Assembly (NCBI RefSeq): GCF_005491705.1
Contig: NZ_CP028092.1
Location: 62,001 to 126,000 of the forward strand
DNA length: 64,000 nucleotides
Reading direction: 5' to 3'
Source: Pontibacter sp. SGAir0037
GTDB lineage: Bacteria > Bacteroidota > Bacteroidia > Cytophagales > Hymenobacteraceae
The notes under the pieces are model-generated. The model saw only the letters and a list, made by a program, of their open reading frames with translations, made no database searches and had not been told where the DNA came from. A program made the position numbers and the translations under genes. This document shows, piece by piece, positions 1,931-62,468 of the stretch (position 1 is the first letter of the stretch; each line of letters begins with the position of its first letter).

Positions 1931-3190
1931 CTATTCCTCAACGGTTGGAGCCAAACTTTGCCTGATGAGGTTAAGCACTGCCAGGGCTGTATACTCTATA
2001 TTGAGCAACCTGTTCTTGTTGTAGTTTAGGAGTCTGGCAATGGTTTTGTCTTTATCGGCATAAGCAATCCAGATGGTGCCAACAGGTTTTTCCGGCGTTC
2101 CGCCATCAGGGCCGGCAATGCCACTTGTAGCTACACCAATATCAGTTTTAAACTTGAGGCGCACATTTTCTGCCATCTGCTTTACTGTTTCTTCACTTAC
2201 AGCGCCATGCAGTTGTAACGTTTCGGGCTTTACGTGCAGCTCCTGCACTTTAACATCATTATGATAGGCCACAACACTTCCTGTAAAGTAAGCAGAACTG
2301 CCGGGCACGCTGGTAAATTTATGGGCCAGCAGTCCTCCGGTGCAGCTTTCGGCAGTGGCAATGGTTAGCTGCTTTTCTTTTAGCAGCAGTCCGATCGCTT
2401 CTTCCAGCTTAATTTCTCCAAAGGCAAATATATTATCAGGAATAAGTTTGACTAATGCTGTTACCTGCTGCTCCAGTTCCTCGTTCAGTATGTTGGCATC
2501 TGTGCCCTGGCCTGTCAGCCTTAATCTAACCCCGTTCAGGTGCGGGAGGTAAGCCAGTTTAATGTGTGGCGGCAGGCTCACTTCCCAGGCCTCCAGGCGT
2601 TCTGCCAGTGTAGATTCCGGAATGGCAATGGTTTGTACCACTTTATGGATAATCTCAGGTGTTTTAAAGTATACCTTCAGCTTGGGCAGTACCGTATCTG
2701 TCATCATACGCTGCATCTCGAAAGGCACTCCTGGCATCGATACAAATATCTTCCCATCTTCCTCAAACCACATGCCCGGGGCAGTACCCAACACATTGCG
2801 TACAGGTGTGCAGGCAGCAGGTAAAAAAGCCTGTTGGCGGTTCAGTTCGCTAACTGCTATACTGCGCCTGCTGAAAATGGCTGTCACATCGTCGAGCGAT
2901 TGCTGGTCTAGCTGTAGTTCTGTTCTAAAGTATGCGGTAAGCACATTCTTGGTGAGATCATCTTTGGTAGGGCCTAAGCCACCGGTTATCAGAATCACAT
3001 CTGCTCTTTTCCGGGCATCATCCAGGGCAGTGGTTATGGCCAAAGCACTGTCGGAGATAGAAGTTATCTGTTTTACCCGGATGCCAACTTTGGTGAGCTC
3101 TGTGCCCATCCAGGCCGAATTAGTATCTACAATCTGGCCATAAAGAATTTCATCGCCTATGGTGATAATTTCTGCGTTTACCGCTTCCAT
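1931..3190 (-). CDS. cinA: CinA family protein (competence/damage-inducible; nicotinamide-nucleotide amidase)
   Basis: The protein has the standard two-domain CinA layout: an N-terminal molybdopterin-binding-like (MoCF) domain with the TGGLGPTKDD motif at residues 69-78, and a C-terminal PncC amidase domain with TAESCTGG at about 279-286. PncC domains deamidate NMN to nicotinate mononucleotide and act in pyridine-nucleotide salvage. The open frame extends upstream to 3310, but the family begins with the AEIITIGDEIL segment, so the ATG at 3190 (419 residues) is chosen. It has its own intergenic region and no evident operon partner. Confidence 0.9.
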   Translation of the reverse strand: MEAVNAEIITIGDEILYGQIVDTNSAWMGTELTKVGIRVKQITSISDSALAITTALDDARKRADVILITGGLGPTKDDLTKNVLTAYFRTELQLDQQSLDDVTAIFSRRSIAVSELNRQQAFLPAACTPVRNVLGTAPGMWFEEDGKIFVSMPGVPFEMQRMMTDTVLPKLKVYFKTPEIIHKVVQTIAIPESTLAERLEAWEVSLPPHIKLAYLPHLNGVRLRLTGQGTDANILNEELEQQVTALVKLIPDNIFAFGEIKLEEAIGLLLKEKQLTIATAESCTGGLLAHKFTSVPGSSAYFTGSVVAYHNDVKVQELHVKPETLQLHGAVSEETVKQMAENVRLKFKTDIGVATSGIAGPDGGTPEKPVGTIWIAYADKDKTIARLLNYNKNRLLNIEYTALAVLNLIRQSLAPTVEE

Positions 3191-3419
3191 ATGTTTTTGG
3201 TCTGATTTATGTTTAAGCTTTCGCGAGACAAGTAGCATGACACAAGTTTCACGACTAAAAATAAAGATATGGCAGATGTGTTGGCGTATTTTTGCATGAT
3301 ATAATTGCAAAGACGCCGTAATAGGTAAAGGTTTCTTACTTTATTGCTCGTGATACGTTAGTTGTGCTACGCGATTCGAAATTATATAACTGTTTCAAAT
3401 AAAAACTGTTCTGAAGAAT

Positions 3420-4148
3420 ATGAAAAAACTGGTTTATACTTCTCTTGTGGCCCTTGCACTGGGTGCTTCTGCCTGTACTGTAGCCGATGTGCAGCGAACG
3501 GTTGATGGTGTTTTAGCAGGCACCGGCGGTGCTGTAACCCGCGAAGAGGTGGCCTCTGGTTTACGGCAGGCTTTGGAGGTGGGCATTAAGAAAGGAGCCG
3601 ACCAGGCTTCACAAACAGATGGATATTATAAAAACCCGTTAATCAGGATTCCTTTTCCGGAGGATGTGAAGCGTGTGGAAAATACGTTAAGGCAGGTGGG
3701 CCTGGGAAACGAAGTGGACCGGTTTATCCTTACCCTGAACAGGGGAGCTGAAGATGCAGCCAAAAGCGCTGTGCCTATCTTTGTTAGCGCCATCAAGCAA
3801 ATGACCATACAAGATGCCTGGGGAATTCTGAAAGGCGATAAAGATGCGGCTACGCAATACCTGAAGCGGACTACTTCGGAGCAACTGTATAACACGTTTA
3901 ATCCGATAGTGGTAAAATCGCTGGAGAAGACGAACGCTACCCGGTACTATGCTGATATTGTAAACCAGTACAACAAGATTCCGCTGGTGCAAAAGGTAAA
4001 CCCGGACCTGGACGATTATGCTACCCAGAAAGCAATGGATGGTTTGTTTCAGTTAGTGGCCCAGGAGGAGGCCAACATTCGTGAAAATCCTATTGCCCGA
4101 ACCACTGAGTTGCTCCGCAGAGTGTTCACTAAAGAAAATCAGTCCTAG
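3420..4148 (+). CDS. DUF4197 family lipoprotein
   Basis: This 242-residue protein starts with a lipoprotein signal peptide: a Lys-Lys N-terminus, a hydrophobic stretch, and a LGASAC lipobox with Cys19. The mature part resembles DUF4197 proteins, helical proteins of unknown function common in Bacteroidota and Proteobacteria; typical pieces are the GLRQALEVGIKKGADQAS stretch and the later QYLKRTTSEQLY segment. It should be anchored in the outer or inner membrane facing the periplasm. A strong hairpin terminator follows directly, so the gene is probably monocistronic. No biochemical role is assigned. Confidence 0.8.
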   Translation: MKKLVYTSLVALALGASACTVADVQRTVDGVLAGTGGAVTREEVASGLRQALEVGIKKGADQASQTDGYYKNPLIRIPFPEDVKRVENTLRQVGLGNEVDRFILTLNRGAEDAAKSAVPIFVSAIKQMTIQDAWGILKGDKDAATQYLKRTTSEQLYNTFNPIVVKSLEKTNATRYYADIVNQYNKIPLVQKVNPDLDDYATQKAMDGLFQLVAQEEANIRENPIARTTELLRRVFTKENQS

Positions 4149-4172
4149 TAGTTACATACATTCACTTACCAG

Positions 4173-4214
4173 AACGCCCGCTTTACCATAAAGTAAAGCG
4201 GGCGTTCTTTTTTG
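4173..4214 (+). terminator. Intrinsic terminator after the DUF4197 gene
   Basis: A perfect 14-bp stem (4173-4186 against 4193-4206) encloses a 6-base loop and is followed on the plus strand by a run of T residues. It ends transcription of the DUF4197 lipoprotein gene and lies upstream of the next start codon at 4292. Confidence 0.88.
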
Positions 4215-4291
4215 TGGAACATAAAGCACTCAATAAAAGTACAATACAGCAAATTTTTAAAACCAAATGCCTGGCACTCAATACCAGAACT

Positions 4292-5572
4292 ATGAAAAAT
4301 AAACCTTTCAGATACCATACCCTGACCAAAGAGCAGGACCTGGATATTTTAGTAGAAGAAATAGGGGATGCGCGTATTGTCATGTTAGGAGAAGCCTCAC
4401 ACGGAACTTCTGAATATTATACCTGGCGTACAGCTATCTCGAAGCGGCTTATACAGGATAAGGGCTTTTGTTGTATAGCTGTGGAAGGCGATTGGCCCGA
4501 GTGCTATAGCGTGAACAGGTTTATAAAAGGGTATCAGAACTCCGGTAGTAAAATTGCCGATGTACTGCAGGTGTACAGGCGCTGGCCTACCTGGATGTGG
4601 GCGAACTGGGAAGTAGCTGCTTTGGTAGAATGGCTTCGGGATTATAATCACCTGAAAAACGGAGCCGAGAAGGCCGGCTTCTACGGGCTGGATGTGTATA
4701 GTTTATGGGAGTCGCTGGATCAGATTGTGCGGTTTCTGGAGCAGCGGGATGGCAATGCGGCAGAGGCTGCCCGGAATGCGATTAACTGTTTTGAGCCTTT
4801 TAACCGTGACCCTCAGTATTATGCGCAGGCCACGGCTTTTGTGCCTACCGATTGCGAGAAAGAAGTAATGGAGATGTTGCAGCGTATCCAGAAGCAACCT
4901 GCCTTTTCCAGCGATGCCGAACATGATTTTAATACCAAACAGAATGCCCTCGTAGCCGCAAATGCCGAAAAGTATTACCGTGCCATGATGAAAGGAGGAG
5001 TCGGTTCCTGGAATGTGCGGGATGCGCATATGATGGAGACGCTGGATCGCCTCCTGGAGCTACACGGGCCTGACTCAAAGATTATCGTTTGGGAACACAA
5101 TACCCACATTGGCGATGCCCGCGCAACTGACATGGCAGATGATGGCATGTATAATATCGGGCAGCTGGCCCGGGAGAAGTACGGCCATGAGCAGGTGAAG
5201 CTGATTGGCTTTGGCACCTACCAGGGAACAGTGATTGCAGGCAAATCATGGGGGGCGCCTATGCAGAAAATGGAAGTGCCGCCTGCCAGAGAAGGTAGCT
5301 GGGAGGCACTGTTGCATGAGATCAGCACCGACGATAAGATTATCTTCTCAAAAGACCTGGCTGAAGTGGCGGAGCTGCAAAAAAGAATCGGCCATAGAGC
5401 TATAGGCGTAGTCTACGATCCTAAATTGGAAGCTTACGGCAACTATGTGCCTACCATTATACCGGAGCGTTACGACGCCTTTATCTACTTCGAGGATACA
5501 GAAGCTGTACACCCTCTGCACTTCACCAACAGAGGCAGCAGAGAACCGGAGTTATACCCGTGGAATTATTAG
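4292..5572 (+). CDS. Erythromycin esterase family protein
   Basis: The 426-residue protein belongs to the erythromycin-esterase/succinoglycan-biosynthesis (EreA/EreB-like) family. The typical MLGEASHGTSEYY motif holds Glu34 and His37, which correspond to the catalytic Glu/His of Ere enzymes, followed by the VEGDWPECY segment and later VWEHNTHIGDA. The frame is open from 4214, but that start lies against the terminator T-run, so the ATG at 4292, which matches the family N-terminus, is preferred. Most environmental members have no proven macrolide substrate, so a resistance function must not be assumed. It has no phosphoribosyltransferase fusion and no operon partner. Confidence 0.85.
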   Translation: MKNKPFRYHTLTKEQDLDILVEEIGDARIVMLGEASHGTSEYYTWRTAISKRLIQDKGFCCIAVEGDWPECYSVNRFIKGYQNSGSKIADVLQVYRRWPTWMWANWEVAALVEWLRDYNHLKNGAEKAGFYGLDVYSLWESLDQIVRFLEQRDGNAAEAARNAINCFEPFNRDPQYYAQATAFVPTDCEKEVMEMLQRIQKQPAFSSDAEHDFNTKQNALVAANAEKYYRAMMKGGVGSWNVRDAHMMETLDRLLELHGPDSKIIVWEHNTHIGDARATDMADDGMYNIGQLAREKYGHEQVKLIGFGTYQGTVIAGKSWGAPMQKMEVPPAREGSWEALLHEISTDDKIIFSKDLAEVAELQKRIGHRAIGVVYDPKLEAYGNYVPTIIPERYDAFIYFEDTEAVHPLHFTNRGSREPELYPWNY

Positions 5573-23428: not shown

Positions 23429-23625
23429 ATCCCCCTAAGGGGGTATTTTGGAGGTCCCCCTTTGAAGGGGGTAGGGGGATGATTTACAGCGGCAGAAAAA
23501 ATTGCTGAAGGCCGGTTTTACAAAAGCAGGTCCAAAGGTACTCTTGGAGGACCCTCGATAGAGAAGGTGGCTAACTTTAATTGTCCCCCTTCGAAGGGGG
23601 TAGGGGGATGATTTACAGTAACAGA
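23429..23625. repeat. Upstream repeat block of the first DUF559 unit (three G5 palindromes)
   Basis: Starting directly at the cysD stop there is a short copy (about 23429-23445), a full forward copy at 23454-23496 and a second full forward copy at 23583-23625. Full copies read GTCCCCCTT, two variable bases, AAGGGGG, TAGGGGGATGATTTAC and a tail AGTAACAGA or AGCGGCAGA. The last copy ends eight bases before the DUF559 ATG at 23634. The palindromic CCCCCTT/AAGGGGG part can form a hairpin. Confidence 0.85.
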
Positions 23626-23633
23626 AAAATAAC

Positions 23634-23990
23634 ATGCACAACAACCAATACAACAAAAAACTGAAGCCACTTGCCAGGACCCTTCGCTCGGCATCTACCA
23701 AGGCAGAAGTGAGGTTGTGGTGCGAACTATTAAGTAAAAGTAAACTAGGTTATTCATTCTTACGGCAACGGTCAGTACACAACTATATCGCCGACTTTAT
23801 GTGTAAAGAATTGAATTTAATTATTGAAGTAGATGGTTATACACATAAATTTAAAGCCGAAGAAGATAAGCTAAGGGATAAAGAGCTGGCAGCTGTAGGA
23901 TTTACTACTTTACGATTTACTGATGAAGAGGTAATGAAGGATATAGCAAATGTACAGCGTGTTATTGAAGGCTGGATAGCAAGCCATTAA
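23634..23990 (+). CDS. DUF559 domain protein, Vsr-like PD-(D/E)XK endonuclease (copy 1)
   Basis: The 118-residue protein is a minimal DUF559 domain. This family is related to the very-short-patch-repair endonuclease fold. The start shows the typical KAEVRLWCELLSKSKLGY stretch with Glu25, then FLRQRSVHNYIADFMC with Asp54, and LIIEVDGYTH with Glu65 and Asp67, the probable metal-binding residues. Its target is unknown. It is enclosed by inverted G5 palindromes and lies between cysD and cysN. About four of five residues are identical to the second copy at 25796, so the two come from recent duplication or repeated insertion of one element. Confidence 0.85.
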   Translation: MHNNQYNKKLKPLARTLRSASTKAEVRLWCELLSKSKLGYSFLRQRSVHNYIADFMCKELNLIIEVDGYTHKFKAEEDKLRDKELAAVGFTTLRFTDEEVMKDIANVQRVIEGWIASH

Positions 23991-23995
23991 CAGAA

Positions 23996-24026
23996 AATCA
24001 TCCCCCTACCCCCTTCAAAGGGGAAC
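23996..24026. repeat. Inverted G5 palindrome closing the first DUF559 unit
   Basis: Five bases after the DUF559 stop the repeat appears in inverted orientation: AATCATCCCCCTACCCCC, then TTCAAAGGGGAAC. With the forward copy at 23583 it forms a pair of terminal inverted repeats around a single nuclease gene. Confidence 0.85.
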
Positions 24027-25473: not shown

Positions 25474-25776
25474 GTCCCCCTTTGAAGAGGGCATTTCTCA
25501 AAGTCCCCCTTGGGGGTAAGGGCCCTCGAAGAAGAAGAGGGTATTTCTAAAAGTTCCCCTTTGAAGGGGGTAGGGGGATGATTACAGTAGCAGAATAAAA
25601 TTTCCAAAGTCTCTTTAAAGGAGTAACCAGAAGTCCCCTTAGGGGTAGAGGCCCTCGAAAAAGAAGGAGGCTATTATCACAAGTCCCCCTTTGAAGGGGG
25701 TAGGGGGATGATTTACAGTAGCAGAGTAATTTGTTTTCCTCTATGCAAGGTAGGAGGATGATTTACAGTAGCAGAG
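25474..25776. repeat. Cluster of full and degenerate G5 palindromes upstream of the second DUF559 gene
   Basis: Six copies in the same orientation are packed into 300 bases. Full forward copies stand at 25553-25594 and 25683-25725; shortened or decayed ones at 25474-25492, 25503-25524, 25633-25651 and 25748-25776. The last keeps only GTAGGAGGATGATTTACAG and the AGCAGAG tail. The interposed sequences also recur (GAAGAAGAGG / AAGAAGGAGG), so larger units were probably duplicated. Spacing is irregular, unlike CRISPR. Confidence 0.85.
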
Positions 25777-25795
25777 AAAATAACATGCAGCTTTA

Positions 25796-26170
25796 ATGCA
25801 AAACAACCAGTACAATAAAAGCCTAAAGCCCTTTGCCAGAGCTATGCGCACTGCATCCACAAAGGCAGAAGTGAGGCTGTGGTGTGAACTGTTAAGCAAA
25901 AGTAAATTGGGATACCCTTTTCTGCGGCAACGGCCAGTACACCATTACATCGCTGACTTTCTGTGTAAAGAATTGAAGCTGATTATAGAGGTAGATGGAT
26001 ATACCCATAAGTTCAAAACAGAAGAGGATAAGATAAGGGACAAAGAGCTGGCAGAGTTAGGGTTTACAACTTTACGGTTTGCCGATGAAGAGGTAATGAA
26101 GGATTTAGCAAATGTACAGCGTGTTATGGAAGAATGGATAGCGCATAATCAGAAGCAAATCATTCCCTAG
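25796..26170 (+). CDS. DUF559 domain protein, Vsr-like PD-(D/E)XK endonuclease (copy 2)
   Basis: The 124-residue protein is a close relative of the one at 23634. It keeps the KAEVRLWCELLSKSKLGY segment, the ADF aspartate and the IIEVDGYTH motif, so both copies look catalytically intact. Differences are scattered and mostly conservative, as expected of selection on the protein. The last residues (about QKQIIP) run into a decayed inverted repeat at 26158-26182 that supplies the stop codon. It follows cysN and stands alone between repeats; no other gene shares its transcript. Confidence 0.85.
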   Translation: MQNNQYNKSLKPFARAMRTASTKAEVRLWCELLSKSKLGYPFLRQRPVHHYIADFLCKELKLIIEVDGYTHKFKTEEDKIRDKELAELGFTTLRFADEEVMKDLANVQRVMEEWIAHNQKQIIP

Positions 26171-26325
26171 CCCCCAAGGGCAACTCAAGCAAAACTCTTT
26201 TAGAAAGGGCTTATGATGGTTGATCTGTTCCTGAAATCATCCCCCTACCCCCTTCAAAGGGGGGCTTCTGGAACTGACCCCTTCTTTTTCGAGTGCCCCT
26301 ACCCCTAGAGGAGAGACTTCAGAAG
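26158..26325. repeat. Inverted G5 palindromes closing the second DUF559 unit
   Basis: A decayed inverted copy overlaps the end of the DUF559 gene (26158-26182), a full inverted copy lies at 26234-26266 (AAATCATCCCCCTACCCCC, then TTCAAAGGGG), and a further remnant with CCCCTACCCCTAGAGG lies near 26295-26325. Together with the forward block at 25474-25776 they bracket the gene in inverted orientation. Confidence 0.8.
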
Positions 26326-48145: not shown

Positions 48146-49738
48146 TTAAAAATCATAATAACGGTTAATCAAATCTGTTTTGATGCCGAAGTAGATGATG
48201 TGTGCCGTGTTATTTACTTGTGCGGAGCTTTCCCGGCGAAAAGTATAGCCAGCCTGCAACTTCAGGTGTGTACGTGGGTTTAGCAAATAGCTGAGTGTAG
48301 GTCTGAAGTAAATAAAATCTGTCCGGACACCCTGGCCTGTCCGGTGGTCTCTGCTCCACTCCGGGCCTTCGGGTTCGGAAAGGAAAATGTTCTTGCCAAA
48401 GTTGGCGCCGGTGGAGTCGGTACCGTAGCGTGACCGGTTGAACAGGGCATTGGCTTCCCATCTTTTATACCTGTAGCTGCCCGTTAACACCAGTTCCCTG
48501 AAATTAGCGCCGAATGGATGTGCCAGTGGCTCATTAAAGTGGGTGTTGCTTAAGATACGGGTGCGGTGCCCGTGTATGTAAGGCCGGGCCTCGTTATATT
48601 CTGCCTGCAGGTACAGGTTTTGCACGCCAAAGGCATGAAATCCTTTCAACCCTAACTGAAAAGCGTACTTCTGGTTAATATGGCCCCGGTGCTCCTCGAT
48701 AAACAGGTCGTCTATGACGAACTGCCCATAGGCATTGTACCGGTTCAGAAAGGTATGCCGCAGGTTAAGCCCCATCATGGAGTTGCCGGGAGAGCCCATA
48801 TTAAAGTTCGCCGAGTTCATATAGATGATCGGGTTCAGGTAAGCCAGCTCAATACCTTTTACGCCGCTGTGCCGGGAAGACCAAAGCATTGCCTGAAACA
48901 GGCTGATGTTCCATGTCGGGCTGGGCAGGAACGAGAGGTACTGGTAGGAAGCGTACTTTTTCGGGTAAGGCTTGTCTGACAGACCATCGCTGGCATCCAC
49001 AAACTGGGTCCATAGGTTCGTATATTTTATCTTCCAGAAGGTCGTATTTATTTTGAAGAAGGGATAGCTGTAGGCATAATCCGACAGGAAAAGGGAACGG
49101 TAGCCATCGCCGAAGAAAAGCTTGTCGTGGCCTGCCTGTATGTTAAAATATTCGCTGGGGGTGTAGCTGATATAGCCCATGGGGAGGGTATACAGCCAGT
49201 CGCGGCTGTCGTTGGTACGACTGGCCCGGCCCTGCCCGGGTGCCATACCCCGCTCTTGAGTATAAGCATCCAGGTACCCTGGAAACCGGGACCAGTTTTC
49301 ATACAGGGCTGCATAAAACGAGAGCTTAGGCGTCAGGTCGCCCTGCAACTGCACGCCAATTGTATTAGTATATACCAGGCCGGTGCCGCTTGCGTAACCC
49401 GGTCTTATGTCGAGTAAAGGATCGGCTGTAATAAATGCATTTCCACGCCGATAGGGGAGCAGGTGCTCCTGGAAAAGCTTGCGGTAGAGCCAGGAACGGT
49501 TCGGCTCGTTGGTGTTACCATACCGGGCATCCATGAGTGAATCCACGGCCACACCTTCATCTTCTATTTCTTGCTGCAGGAAAGGGCGTATGGAACTGTG
49601 CAAGGGTTTGTTTTGCCTCATCAGTTCGCCCTCCACTACCCGGTTATGTTCCTGCTGCAGGGGCAGGTTTCGCTGCTGTGCCGCAGCAGTACCTGCCGCC
49701 ACTAAGAAGGAGAGAAAAAGTAAAATAGGTTTAGGCAT
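48146..49738 (-). CDS. Wzi/RemB-like outer-membrane beta-barrel protein (paralogue 1)
   Basis: The 530-residue protein has a Sec signal peptide (ILLFLSFLVAAGTAAAQ, cleaved near residue 21) and a C-terminal region rich in alternating aromatic and polar residues that ends in YYDF, with a final aromatic residue as usual for outer-membrane barrels. It resembles the Wzi/RemB group of capsule-assembly and gliding-associated barrels. It is a clear paralogue of the protein at 52939, sharing HSSIRPFLQ, SWLYRKLFQEHLL, YSYPFFKINTTFWKIKYTNLW and the last 30 residues almost unchanged. It could hold surface polysaccharide on the cell. Function is inferred from family and context only. Confidence 0.75.
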   Translation of the reverse strand: MPKPILLFLSFLVAAGTAAAQQRNLPLQQEHNRVVEGELMRQNKPLHSSIRPFLQQEIEDEGVAVDSLMDARYGNTNEPNRSWLYRKLFQEHLLPYRRGNAFITADPLLDIRPGYASGTGLVYTNTIGVQLQGDLTPKLSFYAALYENWSRFPGYLDAYTQERGMAPGQGRASRTNDSRDWLYTLPMGYISYTPSEYFNIQAGHDKLFFGDGYRSLFLSDYAYSYPFFKINTTFWKIKYTNLWTQFVDASDGLSDKPYPKKYASYQYLSFLPSPTWNISLFQAMLWSSRHSGVKGIELAYLNPIIYMNSANFNMGSPGNSMMGLNLRHTFLNRYNAYGQFVIDDLFIEEHRGHINQKYAFQLGLKGFHAFGVQNLYLQAEYNEARPYIHGHRTRILSNTHFNEPLAHPFGANFRELVLTGSYRYKRWEANALFNRSRYGTDSTGANFGKNIFLSEPEGPEWSRDHRTGQGVRTDFIYFRPTLSYLLNPRTHLKLQAGYTFRRESSAQVNNTAHIIYFGIKTDLINRYYDF

Positions 49739-49994: not shown

Positions 49995-51389
49995 ATGACA
50001 TACAAATACTCTACATTCTTTAGGTGGGTGAATGTAGCTATAGATTTCATTCTTTTAAATGTATCCCTGTATACCTGTTTTCTGATAGAAAACCCGGATT
50101 TGCTTTGGAAGAATGTAAATGAAAAATATGCCTTAAATTTTGTTCTCTTAAACCTGATATGGTTTTATTTCTCCAGCATCAATAAGCTGTATGAGAATAT
50201 CTTTAAGCGTGATTCCATCCCTACCATCAGAACAACCATTGTATCGCTGGCGCTTTTTGCCATAGGAAGTGTTACTTTAAAGATTGTACTTCCCCAGTTC
50301 AATTTGTCAACCGTCTTTCTCACCTATGCAATTACCTTATTTGCGGGATTGGTATTAAGTTGGAAGATTGTATTCCTGCTTTTCAGAAGGCCGAGACGCA
50401 GGTCCCTTATCAAATATAAAAAATTAGTAATAGCCGGCGCAGGCCCGGTAGGAAGAGATCTCTATAATCATGTTAAGGACAATACCCAATTAGGCTACGA
50501 GGTGGTAGGTTTCTTTGATGATGATTTATCTTTAAAAGAAGAAGGGTTACCTATTTTAGGGAAAGTAGAGGACTGTGTAGCTTATGCAAAAGCGAATAAC
50601 ATCGATTCCATCTATTGTGCATTACCAGACAGTGCGCTTGCTAAAATCAGGAAGCTGATGAAAGATGCCGACAAAAGCCTGATTCGCTTTAGACTGGTAC
50701 CCGATGTGAGAGATCATTTTAAAAAGAATTTTATGGTGGAGATGTACGGGCACCTGCCGGTATTAACACCCAGAAATGAACCGCTGGAGGATAAAGCCAA
50801 CCAGGTGATCAAACGTGCCTTTGATATCTTTTTCTCTGTTTTCGTGATCGTCTTTCTGCTGAGCTGGTTAATTCCGATCATTGCCATTATTATTAAACTG
50901 GATTCCAAAGGACCTGTTTTCTTTAAACAACTTCGCTCCGGCAAAGACAACAAACCTTTTCATTGCCTGAAGTTTAGAAGCATGACGGTAAACAAAGATT
51001 CTGATAGTAAGCAGGCAAGTAAAGGTGATGCCAGAATAACGAAAGTAGGAGCCTTTATACGAAAAACCAGCATAGATGAATTACCCCAGTTTTTTAATGT
51101 GCTGATGGGGGATATGTCAGTGGTTGGCCCAAGGCCACACATGCTGAAGCACACACAGGACTACTCGCAGCTGATAGACAACTTTATGGTTCGGCATTTC
51201 CTGACACCCGGTATCACAGGCTGGGCGCAGGTGAACGGCTACAGGGGTGAAACAAAAGAAACAGACAGTATGGATAAGCGGGTGGAATACGATATCTGGT
51301 ACCTGGAGAACTGGTCGCTACTCCTTGATCTCAAAATTATATTCTTGACGGTATGGCAAGCCATTACAGGCGATGAGAATGCCTTTTAG
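49995..51389 (+). CDS. Undecaprenyl-phosphate glycosylphosphotransferase (initiating enzyme, WcaJ-like)
   Basis: The 464-residue inner-membrane protein starts polysaccharide synthesis by moving a sugar phosphate to undecaprenyl phosphate. It has four N-terminal hydrophobic helices (residues about 10-120), a Rossmann-like central domain with VIAGAGPVGRDLYNHV, a fifth helix (FFSVFVIVFLLSWLIPIIAI) and the C-terminal bacterial sugar transferase domain with GPVFFKQLRSG, KFRSM, and DELPQFFNVLMGDMSVVGPR. This is the polyisoprenyl-phosphate hexose-1-phosphate transferase layout. It lies apart from the main cluster but is the only initiating enzyme visible in the window. Confidence 0.92.
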   Translation: MTYKYSTFFRWVNVAIDFILLNVSLYTCFLIENPDLLWKNVNEKYALNFVLLNLIWFYFSSINKLYENIFKRDSIPTIRTTIVSLALFAIGSVTLKIVLPQFNLSTVFLTYAITLFAGLVLSWKIVFLLFRRPRRRSLIKYKKLVIAGAGPVGRDLYNHVKDNTQLGYEVVGFFDDDLSLKEEGLPILGKVEDCVAYAKANNIDSIYCALPDSALAKIRKLMKDADKSLIRFRLVPDVRDHFKKNFMVEMYGHLPVLTPRNEPLEDKANQVIKRAFDIFFSVFVIVFLLSWLIPIIAIIIKLDSKGPVFFKQLRSGKDNKPFHCLKFRSMTVNKDSDSKQASKGDARITKVGAFIRKTSIDELPQFFNVLMGDMSVVGPRPHMLKHTQDYSQLIDNFMVRHFLTPGITGWAQVNGYRGETKETDSMDKRVEYDIWYLENWSLLLDLKIIFLTVWQAITGDENAF

Positions 51390-51438: not shown

Positions 51439-51641
51439 GTCCCCCTTAGAAGGGGGTAGGGGGATGACTTGCCTGTAAAGTGGTAGTTAAGGTGCTACAG
51501 GTTATGAACAGGATACAACCTTTATCTACTTAACTTTTAGGATACTTAATAATTTATTTAACTGCGGTAAATCATCCCCCTACCCCCTTCAAAGGGGGAC
51601 TTTGGGAAATGCCGCTTTTTTATTGAAGGACCCTGCTACCC
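51439..51641. repeat. G5 palindrome pair and left 167-bp direct repeat next to the Rpn gene
   Basis: A forward G5 palindrome with the long tail (TGACTTGCCTGTAAAG, TGGTAGTTAAGGTGCTACAG) covers 51439-51500, and an inverted copy lies at 51570-51600. Bases 51475-51641 recur at 52738-52904 in the same orientation and without any gap; about nine of 167 positions differ, as counted by eye. The repeat ends 21 bases before the Rpn stop codon. Confidence 0.88.
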
Positions 51642-51661
51642 CAAAGGGGACTTTGTTTCAC

Positions 51662-52522
51662 CTACTTCAACTTTTCTATCTGCTCTATCGGTAGCCCGGT
51701 TGTTTTTGATATGATGGTTACGGCTATTCTGTTTCGGAGTAGCTCCTTTGCTATTTCTATAGCTTTTTGATGCTTTCCCTCTTCTCTCCCCTCTTCCCTG
51801 GCTGTATCCAATGAGTTTTTCAGGTCACGGTAATATTTTAAGCTGTCTTCGTAGGAGCGGATTTGTTCAGGTGTGAAACGAGCTATCTCTGCTGCCTCAA
51901 AAAGCTTCTCAAACACGCGTTCCCTCAGCTTTTCCGGCACCCGGTCCAGCCTGTTAAGGTTGCGCAGTACATAAAGCCATTTGTCGAACCTGCTCTCCAA
52001 CTCATCCACTGTTTTATTAAATTTAGGCATCTCCAGGTAAATGAAGGTGAGCTTGTCGTAGAACACTTTCTTTGTTTCTGTATCCGTTAGTTTAATATCA
52101 TACCGGAACTTACCCGGTTCTTTCTTGTCCTCATCAAATATAAAGTCCAGGATGGCGATGGTATAAACAGCTTTCAGCTCATAGTTCCAGTCGGCCCTTT
52201 TAGCCTGCTCGCGAATAGGAAAAGTGGAGTAGTAGACGGTTCTGTCCTTGAAGAAGTTCTGCTTTGTCTTTTGTAGTTCTACAATAAATTTTTCGCCTCT
52301 TTCATTCTCGCAGTACAGGTCGAAAATAGCCTTCCTGTCCAGTTCGCCTGTTCCCAGGTGCTCGCTTTTCAGGTAGGTCAGGTCTGTGATTTCTCCCTGC
52401 TCTTCTTTTAGAAGTACATTGAGAAAGTCCAGTAGTAAATCTTTATTAGGTTCTTCGCCGAACAATTTTTTAAAGCCATAGTCGGTGAAGGGATTAATAT
52501 ATCGTTCTGCAAATTCAGCCAT
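51662..52522 (-). CDS. Rpn family PD-(D/E)XK nuclease / putative transposase
   Basis: The 286-residue protein belongs to the PD-(D/E)XK transposase-like Rpn family (YhgA-like, recombination-promoting nucleases). The N-terminus ERYINPFTDYGFKKLFG is diagnostic; AIFDLYCENERGEKFIVELQ holds the probable catalytic residues Asp68, Glu82 and Gln84. A Glu-rich segment (AREEGREEGKHQKAIEIAK) follows near 250, as in most relatives. Open sequence reaches 52558, but the ATG at 52522 fits the family and a promoter box lies between. The gene sits exactly between two 167-bp direct repeats that carry G5 palindromes, so the segment may have been moved or duplicated as a unit. Confidence 0.9.
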   Translation of the reverse strand: MAEFAERYINPFTDYGFKKLFGEEPNKDLLLDFLNVLLKEEQGEITDLTYLKSEHLGTGELDRKAIFDLYCENERGEKFIVELQKTKQNFFKDRTVYYSTFPIREQAKRADWNYELKAVYTIAILDFIFDEDKKEPGKFRYDIKLTDTETKKVFYDKLTFIYLEMPKFNKTVDELESRFDKWLYVLRNLNRLDRVPEKLRERVFEKLFEAAEIARFTPEQIRSYEDSLKYYRDLKNSLDTAREEGREEGKHQKAIEIAKELLRNRIAVTIISKTTGLPIEQIEKLK

Positions 52523-52545
52523 CGTTCCTGCCTTTAAATGGTATT

Positions 52546-52553
52546 CAAAGATA
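52546..52553 (-). promoter_or_regulatory. -7 promoter box (TATCTTTG) for the Rpn gene
   Basis: The minus strand reads TATCTTTG, a full match to TAnnTTTG, 23 bases ahead of the ATG at 52522. It overlaps the first codons of the longer open frame, which supports the shorter start. Confidence 0.55.
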
Positions 52554-52737
52554 CACATTTGGCGGATATATCATTCAGAAAGAAGTTACACACCTTTTGG
52601 AGACATTGTAGCAGGACCAGAGGATAAGGCTTCGTGCTGCTTGTTGATAGTATATTGAAATATAATTTTCTAATTTAGAGCCGCACTTTAGCAGAAACCA
52701 ACACACTCCAAGTGCCATGCAGATACGCTGTATGCTG

Positions 52738-52904
52738 GTAAAGTGGTAGTTAAGGTGCTACAGGTTAGGGGCCGGATACAACCTTTATCTATTTAACTTT
52801 TAGGATACTTAATAATTTATTCAACTGCGGTAAATCATCCCCCTATCCCCTTCGAAGGGGGACTTTGGGAAATGCCGCTTTTTTATTGAAGCACCCTGCT
52901 ACCC
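52738..52904. repeat. Right 167-bp direct repeat next to the Rpn gene
   Basis: This is the second copy of 51475-51641 (offset 1263 bases, no gaps). It contains an inverted G5 palindrome at 52833-52863 but lacks the forward copy that precedes the left repeat. The 178 bases between the Rpn promoter region and this repeat show nothing recognisable. The outer-membrane gene begins 34 bases to the right. Confidence 0.88.
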
Positions 52905-52938: not shown

Positions 52939-54546
52939 ATGAAAAAGACTTTTTTATACCTTTCGCTCTCCATCGTGACGCTAGCCTCTGTACAGGCACA
53001 GCAATTGTTCCTGCCTCTGCAGCAGGAAAGCAGCAGGGTGGTAGAGGGAGAGTTGATAAAAAGGAATAAGAACCTGCACAGCTCTATACGGCCCTATTTG
53101 CAAAGCGATATCGAAGAGCAGGGCGTAGCTGTTGATTCTTTAATGGATGCCTGGTATTCGAATGCAAAGGAGGAAGACCGTTCCTGGCTCTACCGCAAGC
53201 TTTTTCAGGAGCATTTGCTGCAGTACAAAGACGATAAAATTAATATTTCTGCAGACCTCTTATTTGATATAGCGCCAGGTTATGAAAAAGGAAAAGGACT
53301 TATTTTTAGCAATACAAGAGGAGTACAACTACAGGGGAACCTGGGCAAAAAGTTTTCTTTTTATACAGCGCTTTACGAGAACTTATCCCGCTTCCCGGGC
53401 TATGTAGATGCCTATACAAGGCAAAGAAGAGTAGTGCCTGGTCAGGGATTTGCCAGGCCTAAAAACGGCAACCAGGATTGGGATTATGCGCTGCCTGTTG
53501 GTTATGTCAGCTTCACGCCGAATGAGTACTTTAACTTTCAATTCGGGCAGGATAAAAACTTTTTAGGCGATGGCTATCGCTCGTTAATCCTATCGGATTT
53601 TGCCTATAGCTATCCTTTCTTCAAGATTAATACCACCTTCTGGAAAATTAAGTACACCAACCTCTGGACGCAGTACATGGATATCAGCAACGGCTTTGTA
53701 GGTCCGCGCTATCCTAAAAAGTATGCTACCTATAATTACCTGTCGTTCCTGCCGAGCCCTAAATGGAACATTAGTATCTTTCAGTCTATGATCTGGGGAC
53801 CTGATTCTGGCAGTGATGGTTCAGTAGAACTGGCTTACCTGAACCCGATCATCTTTATGAATGCCGTAAACTTTAATATGGGCTCACCGGGCAATTCTAT
53901 GATGGGAGCAAACTTAAGGTATAATTTCCTGAACAGGTATTCTGCGTATGGTCAATTTGTGCTGGATGACTTTAATATTGAAAAGCTATTTGAAGGGAGC
54001 GGCTTTTTTCAGCAGAAAGTGGGGTACCAGCTAGGCTTAAAAGCGTTTGATTTGTTTGGTATTCCGAATATGTATGCACAGGCTGAGTATAATCATGTGA
54101 GGCCCTATGTTTACGGACATAAGCTGCCTTCGCTTAATAATGCCCATTACAACGAGCCATTGGCGCATCCGTTTGGTGCAAATTTCAACGAGTTAATCCT
54201 GATCGGAGGCTATAGAATCAGGAGGTTCGATTTGAACACAAAGTTTAACATATCCAGGTACGGTGCGGATGCAAATGGTATACACTACGGCAAGAATATC
54301 TTCTTATCAGATTACGATGCGCCGGGAGGAGAATTTACTTTTGGCAACTACACAGGCCAGGGAGTAGCTACAAACTTCTACTACAACAACTCTACCCTCA
54401 GCTATCTGCTAAACCCCAGAACAAACATGAAACTGCAGGCTGGTTATACCTTCCGCCGAGAGAGCTCTTCCCTGGTGAACTCCAACGCCCACATCGTTTA
54501 CTTCGGCATCAAAACTGACCTGATCAACAGGTATTACGATTTTTAA
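52939..54546 (+). CDS. Wzi/RemB-like outer-membrane beta-barrel protein (paralogue 2)
   Basis: The 535-residue protein is the paralogue of the gene at 48146 on the opposite strand; well over half of the residues are identical by eye, including SWLYRKLFQEHLLQY, YSYPFFKINTTFWKIKYTNL, FNMGSPGNSMMG, YNEPLAHPFGANF and the C-terminal IVYFGIKTDLINRYYDF. It has a Sec signal (MKKTFLYLSLSIVTLASVQA) cleaved near residue 20. As a barrel in the outer membrane it may bind or assemble surface polysaccharide. It lies immediately right of the second direct repeat of the Rpn segment. Confidence 0.75.
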   Translation: MKKTFLYLSLSIVTLASVQAQQLFLPLQQESSRVVEGELIKRNKNLHSSIRPYLQSDIEEQGVAVDSLMDAWYSNAKEEDRSWLYRKLFQEHLLQYKDDKINISADLLFDIAPGYEKGKGLIFSNTRGVQLQGNLGKKFSFYTALYENLSRFPGYVDAYTRQRRVVPGQGFARPKNGNQDWDYALPVGYVSFTPNEYFNFQFGQDKNFLGDGYRSLILSDFAYSYPFFKINTTFWKIKYTNLWTQYMDISNGFVGPRYPKKYATYNYLSFLPSPKWNISIFQSMIWGPDSGSDGSVELAYLNPIIFMNAVNFNMGSPGNSMMGANLRYNFLNRYSAYGQFVLDDFNIEKLFEGSGFFQQKVGYQLGLKAFDLFGIPNMYAQAEYNHVRPYVYGHKLPSLNNAHYNEPLAHPFGANFNELILIGGYRIRRFDLNTKFNISRYGADANGIHYGKNIFLSDYDAPGGEFTFGNYTGQGVATNFYYNNSTLSYLLNPRTNMKLQAGYTFRRESSSLVNSNAHIVYFGIKTDLINRYYDF

Positions 54547-54668: not shown

Positions 54669-54826
54669 GTCCCCCTTTGAAGGGGGTGGGGGGATGATTA
54701 CAATAGCAGAGTAATTTTTAGAATTGCCGGAGTAAGTGCATAAAAGGCTGCTCCTGTTCTTACCCTGTAGCAACTGAACTACCACTTTAGAGGCAAGTCA
54801 TCCCCCTGCCCCCTTCAAAGGGGGAC
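54669..54826. repeat. Facing pair of G5 palindromes downstream of paralogue 2
   Basis: A forward copy at 54669-54710 (GTCCCCCTTTGAAGGGGG, then TGGGGGGATGATTAC with the AATAGCAGAG tail) faces an inverted copy at 54796-54826. The sequence before the inverted copy (TGTAGCAACTGAACTACC, ACTTTAGAGGCAAG) is the reverse complement of the long tail found at 51466-51500. No gene lies in 54547-54858. Confidence 0.85.
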
Positions 54827-60594: not shown

Positions 60595-61042
60595 GCCTTG
60601 TGGTATTAAAAAGTCCCCCTTAGAAGGGGGTAGGGGGATGACCTGCCTGTAAAGTGGTAGTTGAGTTGCTACAGACTTTGGCTCCTTCTTTATGGAGGGC
60701 CTCAACTCTCAAGGGTGGCTTTTACAGCATCAAACTTAAGATTTAAAGTAATAATCCATAGCCATGCACAAGTCCCCCTTCGAAGGGGGTTGGGGGATGA
60801 CTGCCTGTGAAGCGGTGTACCAGCTGCTACGGGCTAGGAACGGTATCTGAATTCTCCTACGCTCCGGCACTCATAAGTTTTTCTGCTCCTGTAATCATCC
60901 CCCAACCCCCTTCAAAGGGGGACGAAGTTCTTCTTTGAAAAAGGTAAGCCTTGATTATATTTCCCTCTCAACTTTTCCCACCTATAGGTGTTCAGAAGAT
61001 AACTAAATACCCGGTGACACAGAAAGTCCCCCTTCAAAGGGG
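60595..61042. repeat. Four G5 palindromes in the dnaG-ribBA spacer
   Basis: The 674-base gap between dnaG and ribBA has no gene. It carries forward copies with the long tail at 60613-60674 and 60772-60833, an inverted copy at 60893-60923 and a short copy (GTCCCCCTTCAAAGGGG) at 61026-61042. Both long tails end near TGCTACAGA / TGCTACGGG, like those at 51500 and 17880. The spacing is irregular. Confidence 0.85.
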
Positions 61043-61220: not shown

Positions 61221-62468
61221 ATGGAAAATAATCCGAAAGAAGACTTAAGGCCTTTCGATACTATAGAAGCTGCGATAGAAGATATTCGTCAAGGCAAAAT
61301 CGTGATTGTGGTAGACGACGATGATCGCGAAAACGAAGGAGATTTTATCTGCGCAGCAGAGAAAGTAACTCCTGAAATCATCAACTTTATGGCGACACAC
61401 GGGCGTGGGCTGATTTGCTGCCCGCTTACCGAAGAGCGTTGCGATGAACTGGGGCTGGAGCTGATGGTTGGAAAGAACACTGCTCTGCACGCCACTCCTT
61501 TCACCGTTTCGGTAGACCTGATCGGGCATGGCTGCACCACCGGTATTTCTGCTTCCGATAGAGCTAAGACCATTTTAGCACTTGTCGATCCTGCTACAGA
61601 TCCTGATTCACTGGGCAAACCAGGCCATATTTTCCCGCTTAAGGCAAAGAAAGAAGGCGTTATCCGCCGTGCAGGCCATACCGAAGCGGCCGTCGATCTG
61701 GCTCGCCTGGCTGGTCTGGCTCCGGCTGGTGTGCTCATCGAGATCATGAACGAAGACGGAACGATGGCCCGTTTGCCTGACCTGGTAAAGGTGGCGGAGA
61801 AGTTCGACCTGAAGCTCGTTTCTATCAAGGACCTGATCGAGTACCGCCTCCGGAAAGAAAGCCTGATAGACCTGGAGATTGTGGTGCAACTGCCAACCGA
61901 CTTTGGCAATTTTGATCTATACGCTTTTACACAGCGTAGCAACGGAGCAAAACACCTGGCATTGGTAAAAGGAACATGGGAACCGAATGAACCGGTGCTG
62001 GTACGGGTGCACTCTTCCTGCGTAACGGGCGATATTTTTGGCTCCTGCCGCTGCGACTGCGGGCCACAGCTACACGAAGCCATGCGCATGGTGGAGCGGG
62101 CCGGGCAAGGCGTAATTGTATACATGAACCAGGAGGGCAGAGGCATCGGCCTGATAAATAAACTGAAGGCTTATAAGCTGCAGGAGCAGGGCCTGGACAC
62201 AGTAGAGGCCAATCTGGAGCTGGGCTTCGGAATGGATGAACGTGACTATGGCGTAGGTGCTCAAATTTTAAGGGAGCTAAACGTAACTAAGATGAAACTA
62301 ATCTCGAATAACCCTAAAAAGCGTTCTGGCTTAATGGGTTATGGATTAGAAGTCGTGGATAATGTGCCGATTGAAATAACTCCGAACGAGCATAATCAAA
62401 AATACCTGACAACAAAACGGGATAAATTGGGGCATACTATTTTGAAGAATATAGCCTTTAAAAAATAA
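61221..62468 (+). CDS. ribBA: Bifunctional 3,4-dihydroxy-2-butanone-4-phosphate synthase / GTP cyclohydrolase II
   Basis: The 415-residue protein carries both branches of riboflavin precursor synthesis. The N-terminal RibB domain (about 1-205) has [32 protein letters not shown] and the later Glu-rich active site for ribulose 5-phosphate. The C-terminal RibA domain (about 206-415) opens GTP and has the zinc-binding [18 protein letters not shown] (three cysteines), [11 protein letters not shown], and the [12 protein letters not shown] segment. The length is normal for the fusion. It is transcribed alone from a promoter near 61158 and ended by a strong hairpin. Confidence 0.95.

Follow-up and report, generated by a model that had tools for sequence, protein, structure and literature searches.

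The window analysed here is a stretch of 64,000 nucleotides from Pontibacter sp. SGAir0037 (positions 62,001 to 126,000 of contig NZ_CP028092.1), and position numbers without further label are counted from its first letter. It contains a gene of the Rpn nuclease family that lies between two direct repeats, with a sugar transferase gene and a gene for a wzi-like protein on the outside. The features of the locus are as follows.

49995–51389, plus strand: left neighbour, an undecaprenyl-phosphate sugar transferase type protein (PF02397 and PF13727).
51441–51467, plus strand: left palindrome, a hairpin and TAGGGGGATGA tag, of the complete palindromic unit (palindrome search).
51470–51641, plus strand: direct repeat copy 1, on the downstream side of Rpn; 172 nucleotides, 94% identical to copy 2 (repeat search).
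51572–51598, minus strand: right palindrome of the complete unit, inverted, inside repeat copy 1 (palindrome search).
51642–52737, no strand assigned: putative inserted segment of ~1.1 kb, taken as the interval between the copies by analogy with genome G185 (1023 bp) and a Bacteroides faecis plasmid (~1009 bp).
51662–52558, minus strand: Rpn family PD-(D/E)XK nuclease gene; longest ORF 298 residues (PF12784, 269 bits; TIGR01784, 119.5 bits).
52546–52553, minus strand: putative Bacteroidetes −7 promoter box TATCTTTG of Rpn, read from the sequence.
52733–52904, plus strand: direct repeat copy 2, on the upstream side of Rpn, lacking the left palindrome (repeat search).
52835–52861, minus strand: right palindrome inside repeat copy 2, with one mismatch (palindrome search).
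52939–54546, plus strand: right neighbour, a 535-residue wzi-like protein with no Pfam match, 65% identical to the paralogue at 48146–49738.

The two wzi-like paralogues (530 and 535 residues) are divergently placed and flank the sugar transferase and Rpn genes; no upstream sequence common to the two was found. Apart from the 65% paralogue, no relative of the right neighbour above 37% identity is present in 50 congeners, and its sole match among GTDB species, at 39%, is in a groundwater assembly. The sugar transferase gene has ~69–72% DNA identity to those of congeners, in which no wzi-like gene stands alongside. On these comparisons the region is a predicted outer-envelope locus that is private to this genome. 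Because the flanking genes are private, an empty site for the window locus was not found in the sampled relatives (50 congeners and the GTDB species).

The Rpn gene is intact and is the only gene within the repeat-bounded interval. Its PF12784 match covers the full model (1–229 of 229), and the TIGR01784 score of 119.5 bits, against a cut-off of 52, places the product in that family. The true start is probably the ATG at 52522–52520, giving a protein of 286 residues, because the −7 box sits just upstream of it and recurs before other Rpn copies; the box was found upstream of most of the other copies examined in the genus. In an alignment of 131 homologues Asp84, Glu98, Gln100, Arg110, and Trp128 (numbered in the stop-to-stop ORF) are near-invariant, and these conserved D, E-x-Q, R, and W positions correspond to the PD-(D/E)XK-type residues of a predicted nuclease core. 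The C-terminal part carries four-residue repeats, AREEGREEGK in the window protein and AREEGREEGREEGREEGREE in that of locus L077, and the repeat region of the L187 protein is eight residues longer than that of the L185 protein. In such EEGR-type repeats, the number of which varies between copies, the window protein is like those of the RpnL/RpnS family, anti-phage toxin-antitoxin genes (PMC5350276, PMC10327210) that belong to the same PF12784/TIGR01784 family and have the conserved nuclease-core positions in common with it. Full-length Rpn has been described as a toxin that is restrained by its own C-terminal fragment, protects against phage, and is not autonomously mobile (PMC10327210). At two loci, L037 and L040, the Rpn genes have additional copies of their C-terminal part downstream. 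PADLOC returned no match to any Rpn model, and phage records yielded only five Rpn matches, all distant.

A sporadic and often multicopy distribution is shared with the Rpn (YhgA-like) recombination-promoting nucleases, and one genus of the survey, g47, has many Rpn copies per genome. The initial annotation of this DNA had named, as the observation that would count against its proposal, a gene and both repeats occupying one and the same site in every relative. The gene is instead sporadic in the genus, with PF12784 found in 4 of the 50 congeners, and the genes that flank it are private to this genome.

The repeats had been described as 167 bp long with about nine differences. There are exactly 9 mismatches between 51475–51641 and 52738–52904, which form the inner part of a repeat with a full extent of 172 nucleotides at 94% identity. 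The longest identical runs between the copies are 37, 30, and 29 bp, and the similarity is far beyond chance; no third match to more than part of the repeat is present in the 5.38-Mb genome. The inverted G5 palindrome that had been assigned to both copies is indeed there, as a C5/G5 palindrome at 51583–51598 and 52846–52861 (one end base changed). The left palindrome, which precedes copy 1 in the opposite orientation, was absent from that description. With it, copy 1 can be seen to consist of the inner and right parts of a complete two-palindrome unit, of which copy 2 is a left-truncated version. In both copies the repeat runs on for 43 bp beyond the right palindrome; neither the genome nor the search of the genus yielded a third match to the final portion of this tail. 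Since the flanking bases that the copies have in common are without a match elsewhere in the genome, the two repeats are a duplication of one locus and not two insertions of a palindromic element. The gene was also said to lie exactly between the repeats. It is the sole gene of the interval, but “exactly” is generous, as copy 1 is 20 bp from the Rpn stop codon and copy 2 is 180–215 bp from the Rpn start.

For a survey of such repeats, Rpn loci were collected across the order, and the 400 bp to the left of each gene were compared with the 400 bp to its right at a threshold score of ≥25, with neighbouring ORFs of similar size as controls. Close flanking repeats were found at 6 of 91 Rpn genes as compared with 1 of 268 neighbouring ORFs in the first set (Fisher p = 0.0013), and at 8 of 134 as compared with 3 of 368 in the enlarged set (Fisher p = 0.0017). 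With tandem Rpn loci left out and two homologous arrays of genus g37 counted once, the figures, for which we counted the denominators, are 6 of 121 and 3 of 368 (p = 0.009). At one positive, L220, the repeat lies inside a probable helix-turn-helix coding sequence. Direct repeats are modestly linked to Rpn: about 5–6% of Rpn genes show close direct repeats, as do a few ordinary genes.

The initial annotation had raised the idea that the repeat-gene-repeat arrangement may reflect insertion or excision, and this gains from the enrichment of repeats at Rpn and from a gene-free, single-repeat form that was found for two other Rpn genes. In genome G185 (L374), the Rpn gene at 3541–4389 is located between perfect 36-bp repeats at 3396–3431 and 4455–4490. 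In genome G103 of the same genus (L403), Rpn is absent and the 36-mer occurs once, with the left flank running through L403:2089 and the right flank beginning at L403:2054; an excised version of the G185 filled site aligns to G103 through the junction. A third genome, G213, also has a single copy of the 36-mer, to the left of which is a carboxylesterase gene. The two G185 36-mers are identical to each other and have several differences from the G103 copy, indicating that G185 and G103 had already split when the duplication arose.

The second comparison is between two plasmids. In the B. faecis plasmid NZ_CP103143.1, Rpn (3113–3982) lies between 292-nucleotide repeats at 2764–3055 and 4065–4356, and the B. 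ovatus plasmid NZ_CP103211.1, which is 97–99% identical on both sides, has one repeat copy and no Rpn; the length of the repeat in this comparison is 281–292 bp. When the three copies are compared, that of B. ovatus mostly follows the left B. faecis copy first and the right copy last, apart from two exceptions close to the left end, a pattern that suggests a crossover. The comparison thus looks in part like a crossover chimera and would favour homologous recombination at this site. A 654-bp hypothetical gene to the left of the repeat (L430, 2092–2745; NZ_CP103143.1) is also missing from the B. ovatus plasmid, which implies one or more additional gains or losses at this spot.

Priestia plasmids were considered as empty sites and rejected, the Rpn-free plasmids being rearranged and not simple empty sites. 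Among Leptospira plasmids no empty site was found, as every match listed carries Rpn. E. coli rpnC was set aside as a test of insertion; it is nearly fixed between panD and panC, and no empty class was seen. An empty site was not found for a 40-bp repeat locus of genome G056.

The interpretation that we favour, with middling confidence, is that the repeats are the footprint left when a compact Rpn segment was inserted and its target duplicated. It is based on the duplication of one locus, the sporadic occurrence of Rpn, the excess of flanking repeats, and the two single-repeat empty sites, and we infer by analogy that the event at the window locus was the same as that at the filled and empty sites. 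The starting site would have held one 172-bp copy, composed of unique flank and the right-hand portion of a palindromic unit already in place. A segment of ~1.0–1.1 kb, comprising little beyond the Rpn gene and its own promoter and lacking conserved ends, would have entered it, and the target would have been left duplicated on both sides of Rpn. The duplication may have arisen when a break with widely staggered ends (36 to ~290 bp across cases) was repaired, rather than through homologous recombination. A candidate for the cutter is Rpn itself; the Rpn proteins of E. coli cleave DNA and raise RecA-independent recombination (PMC5350276).

The size of the intervals between repeats is in favour of insertion. 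Measured from repeat to repeat, they are 1096 bp in the window, 1050 bp in G056, 1023 bp in G185, ~1009 bp in the B. faecis plasmid, and ~994 bp in L206, so that all five are alike at ~1.0–1.1 kb, and each comprises Rpn and an additional 100–230 bp. Counted against insertion are the failure to find an empty site for the window locus in the sampled relatives, the ~94% of Rpn loci that have no close direct repeat, the membership of some bracketing repeats in dispersed families, and the wide range of repeat lengths, which is unlike that expected for a classical transposase. The resemblance to insertion sequences consists of a short gene-carrying segment, a duplicated target, and a single copy of that target in the empty site, as seen at two other Rpn loci. 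The differences from insertion sequences are that none of 92 Rpn loci has terminal inverted repeats at an inverted flank score of ≥25, that the inner ends of the cassettes have, by eye, no apparent sequence in common, and that the duplication varies from 36 to ~290 bp. Integron cassette arrays are similar in having cassettes of one gene or one module split by direct repeats, a layout that is clear in genus g37, but the Rpn repeats vary in sequence and length between cases and the Rpn cassettes have their own promoter. No integrase was noticed among the ORFs at 48–56.5 kb of the window.

Homologous recombination at the repeats is a possible, although on the whole doubtful, origin of the arrangement. 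A circular or linear molecule with Rpn and one repeat would cross into a resident copy, or cassette-like shuffling would occur between dispersed repeats, and the flanking repeats would be recombination sites and not target site duplications. The gene-free B. ovatus copy, which mostly tracks the left copy and then the right copy, is what a crossover would leave. In genus g37, an array of MNT-HepT and Rpn (two genomes) and HigBA (one genome) has its modules separated by ~300-bp dispersed repeats; a 180-bp core of this repeat is present in dozens of copies per genome in several species; across the genus, several genomes gave at least 41 matches and two gave none. Because the repeats that bracket Rpn also bracket other modules, recombination is favoured for part of the cases. 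In G056, the 40-bp repeat is similar to copies next to two further Rpn loci in that genome, and it drew 634 first-look candidates. At the window locus, by contrast, neither the inner part of the repeat nor its 43-bp tail is dispersed, and the 36-bp repeat of G185 is a perfect one for which the genus search did not report dispersed copies; these features speak against recombination at the two sites. The toxin-antitoxin module arrays of g37 (L185 and L187) adjoin a NusG-like gene.

A stronger version of the insertion interpretation, in which Rpn is a self-moving cassette without defined ends that makes its own staggered breaks and has a ~1-kb segment copied into them, with variable duplications (36 to ~290 bp), appears unlikely. 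A tandem duplication of the repeat together with Rpn, after which the second Rpn was lost, is quite improbable: tandem Rpn genes with repeated spacers or ends do occur in L367, L368, and the Persicobacter plasmid L434, but no Rpn remnant is apparent beside copy 2, and the gene-free member of both filled/empty pairs lacks Rpn and has the repeat once, as insertion predicts. Two independent insertions of a palindromic element on either side of Rpn by chance, which the five other palindrome clusters in the same 64 kb might suggest, are very improbable and were rejected as largely refuted by the common outside flank; the copies have bases outside the element in common and differ by 5–6%, as compared with ~71–79% identity among the other units of the window, and copy 2 has no left palindrome.

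The palindrome within the repeats is also found at other sites in the window, of which the following are relevant here.

23585–24024, no strand assigned: DUF559 gene bracketed by an inverted palindrome pair.
25685–26263, no strand assigned: second DUF559 gene bracketed by an inverted palindrome pair.
54671–54824, no strand assigned: gene-free two-palindrome unit in the opposite orientation, ~79% identical to the unit at 51441–51606.

A second gene-free two-palindrome unit is at 60774–60921. Allowing ≤2 mismatches, the hairpin with its tag has 15 copies in the genome, 14 of which are within the 64-kb window; these 14 (23456–60921) are in a polysaccharide-type region, whereas in many congeners the copies are spread genome-wide. 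The partner of the palindrome is DUF559, and the palindrome beside Rpn is a bystander, carried along with the target that was duplicated. The initial annotation had the palindrome accompanying both nuclease families. For DUF559 this holds, with inverted flank matches (score ≥25) at 24 of 29 genes; for Rpn it does not, with none at 92 loci and likewise none at 350 other ORFs. Its suggestion that Rpn genes be examined for a nearby palindrome was followed across the genus, with ~4 kb read on each side, and the palindrome was within 3 kb of none of the nine other Rpn loci; at one of the nine it is ~3.4 kb away. The palindrome is present in 44 of the 50 genomes of the genus and PF12784 in 4, and it is missing in 3 of the 4 genomes without DUF559 as compared with 3 of the 46 with it (Fisher p = 0.004). 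A functional tie of Rpn to the palindrome, or to the nuclease that acts on the palindrome, draws on a coincidence at one locus and is scarcely credible; it was rejected on the genome counts (44 of 50 and 4 of 50), the distances (0 of 9 within 3 kb), and the inverted matches (0 of 92), the inverted hairpins being at DUF559 instead.

In this genus, the inverted repeats that bracket DUF559 genes are hairpins rich in G/C that carry a short G-rich tag, and they belong to several sequence families (L269–L298; L107 and L115); the hairpin family of the window was found at two sampled DUF559 loci in addition to the two in the window. The combination of DUF559 (a Vsr-like PD-(D/E)XK protein), inverted hairpins, and gene-free units elsewhere resembles the REP/RAYT layout with a different enzyme. 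As in REP/REPIN elements with RAYT (PMC3733652, PMC3116915), the palindromic unit has a hairpin and short tag in two inverted copies ~100 bp apart, and gene-free copies and dispersed inverted tagged hairpins are present elsewhere. It differs in that the gene bracketed by the window palindrome is DUF559, and the comparison concerns the palindrome and not Rpn. No match to the cognate Y1 transposase (PF01797) is present in the genome that contains the window. The Y1 transposase genes of two congeners (L336 and L337) have their own inverted palindrome, GCTGGCGCGAGCTTGCAGCTCGTGCCT, which is unlike the DUF559 hairpins, and in genome G015 a gap of 5 bp separates a Y1 fragment from a palindrome copy of the window type. 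At the level of titles and abstracts, no link between DUF559 and hairpin repeats was found among the papers searched that mention DUF559.

Rpn genes and flanking repeats as such were already known; as far as we have seen, the pair of filled and empty sites and the survey are new, and no paper that joins the Rpn family with target site duplication was found among those searched. In the passages of PMC5350276 that were consulted, the account of Rpn makes no mention of flanking direct repeats, whereas the two filled/empty sites described here represent gain or loss of a compact cassette. Rpn genes are widespread, toxic, and linked to phage defence, and have been described as not autonomously mobile. 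The palindrome that adjoins the Rpn gene of the window belongs to a different nuclease family. The two single-repeat empty sites, together with the excess of flanking repeats, provide a concrete and testable footprint for the gain and loss of Rpn genes, and if Rpn were self-moving, an anti-phage toxin gene would be spreading without conventional transposon ends.
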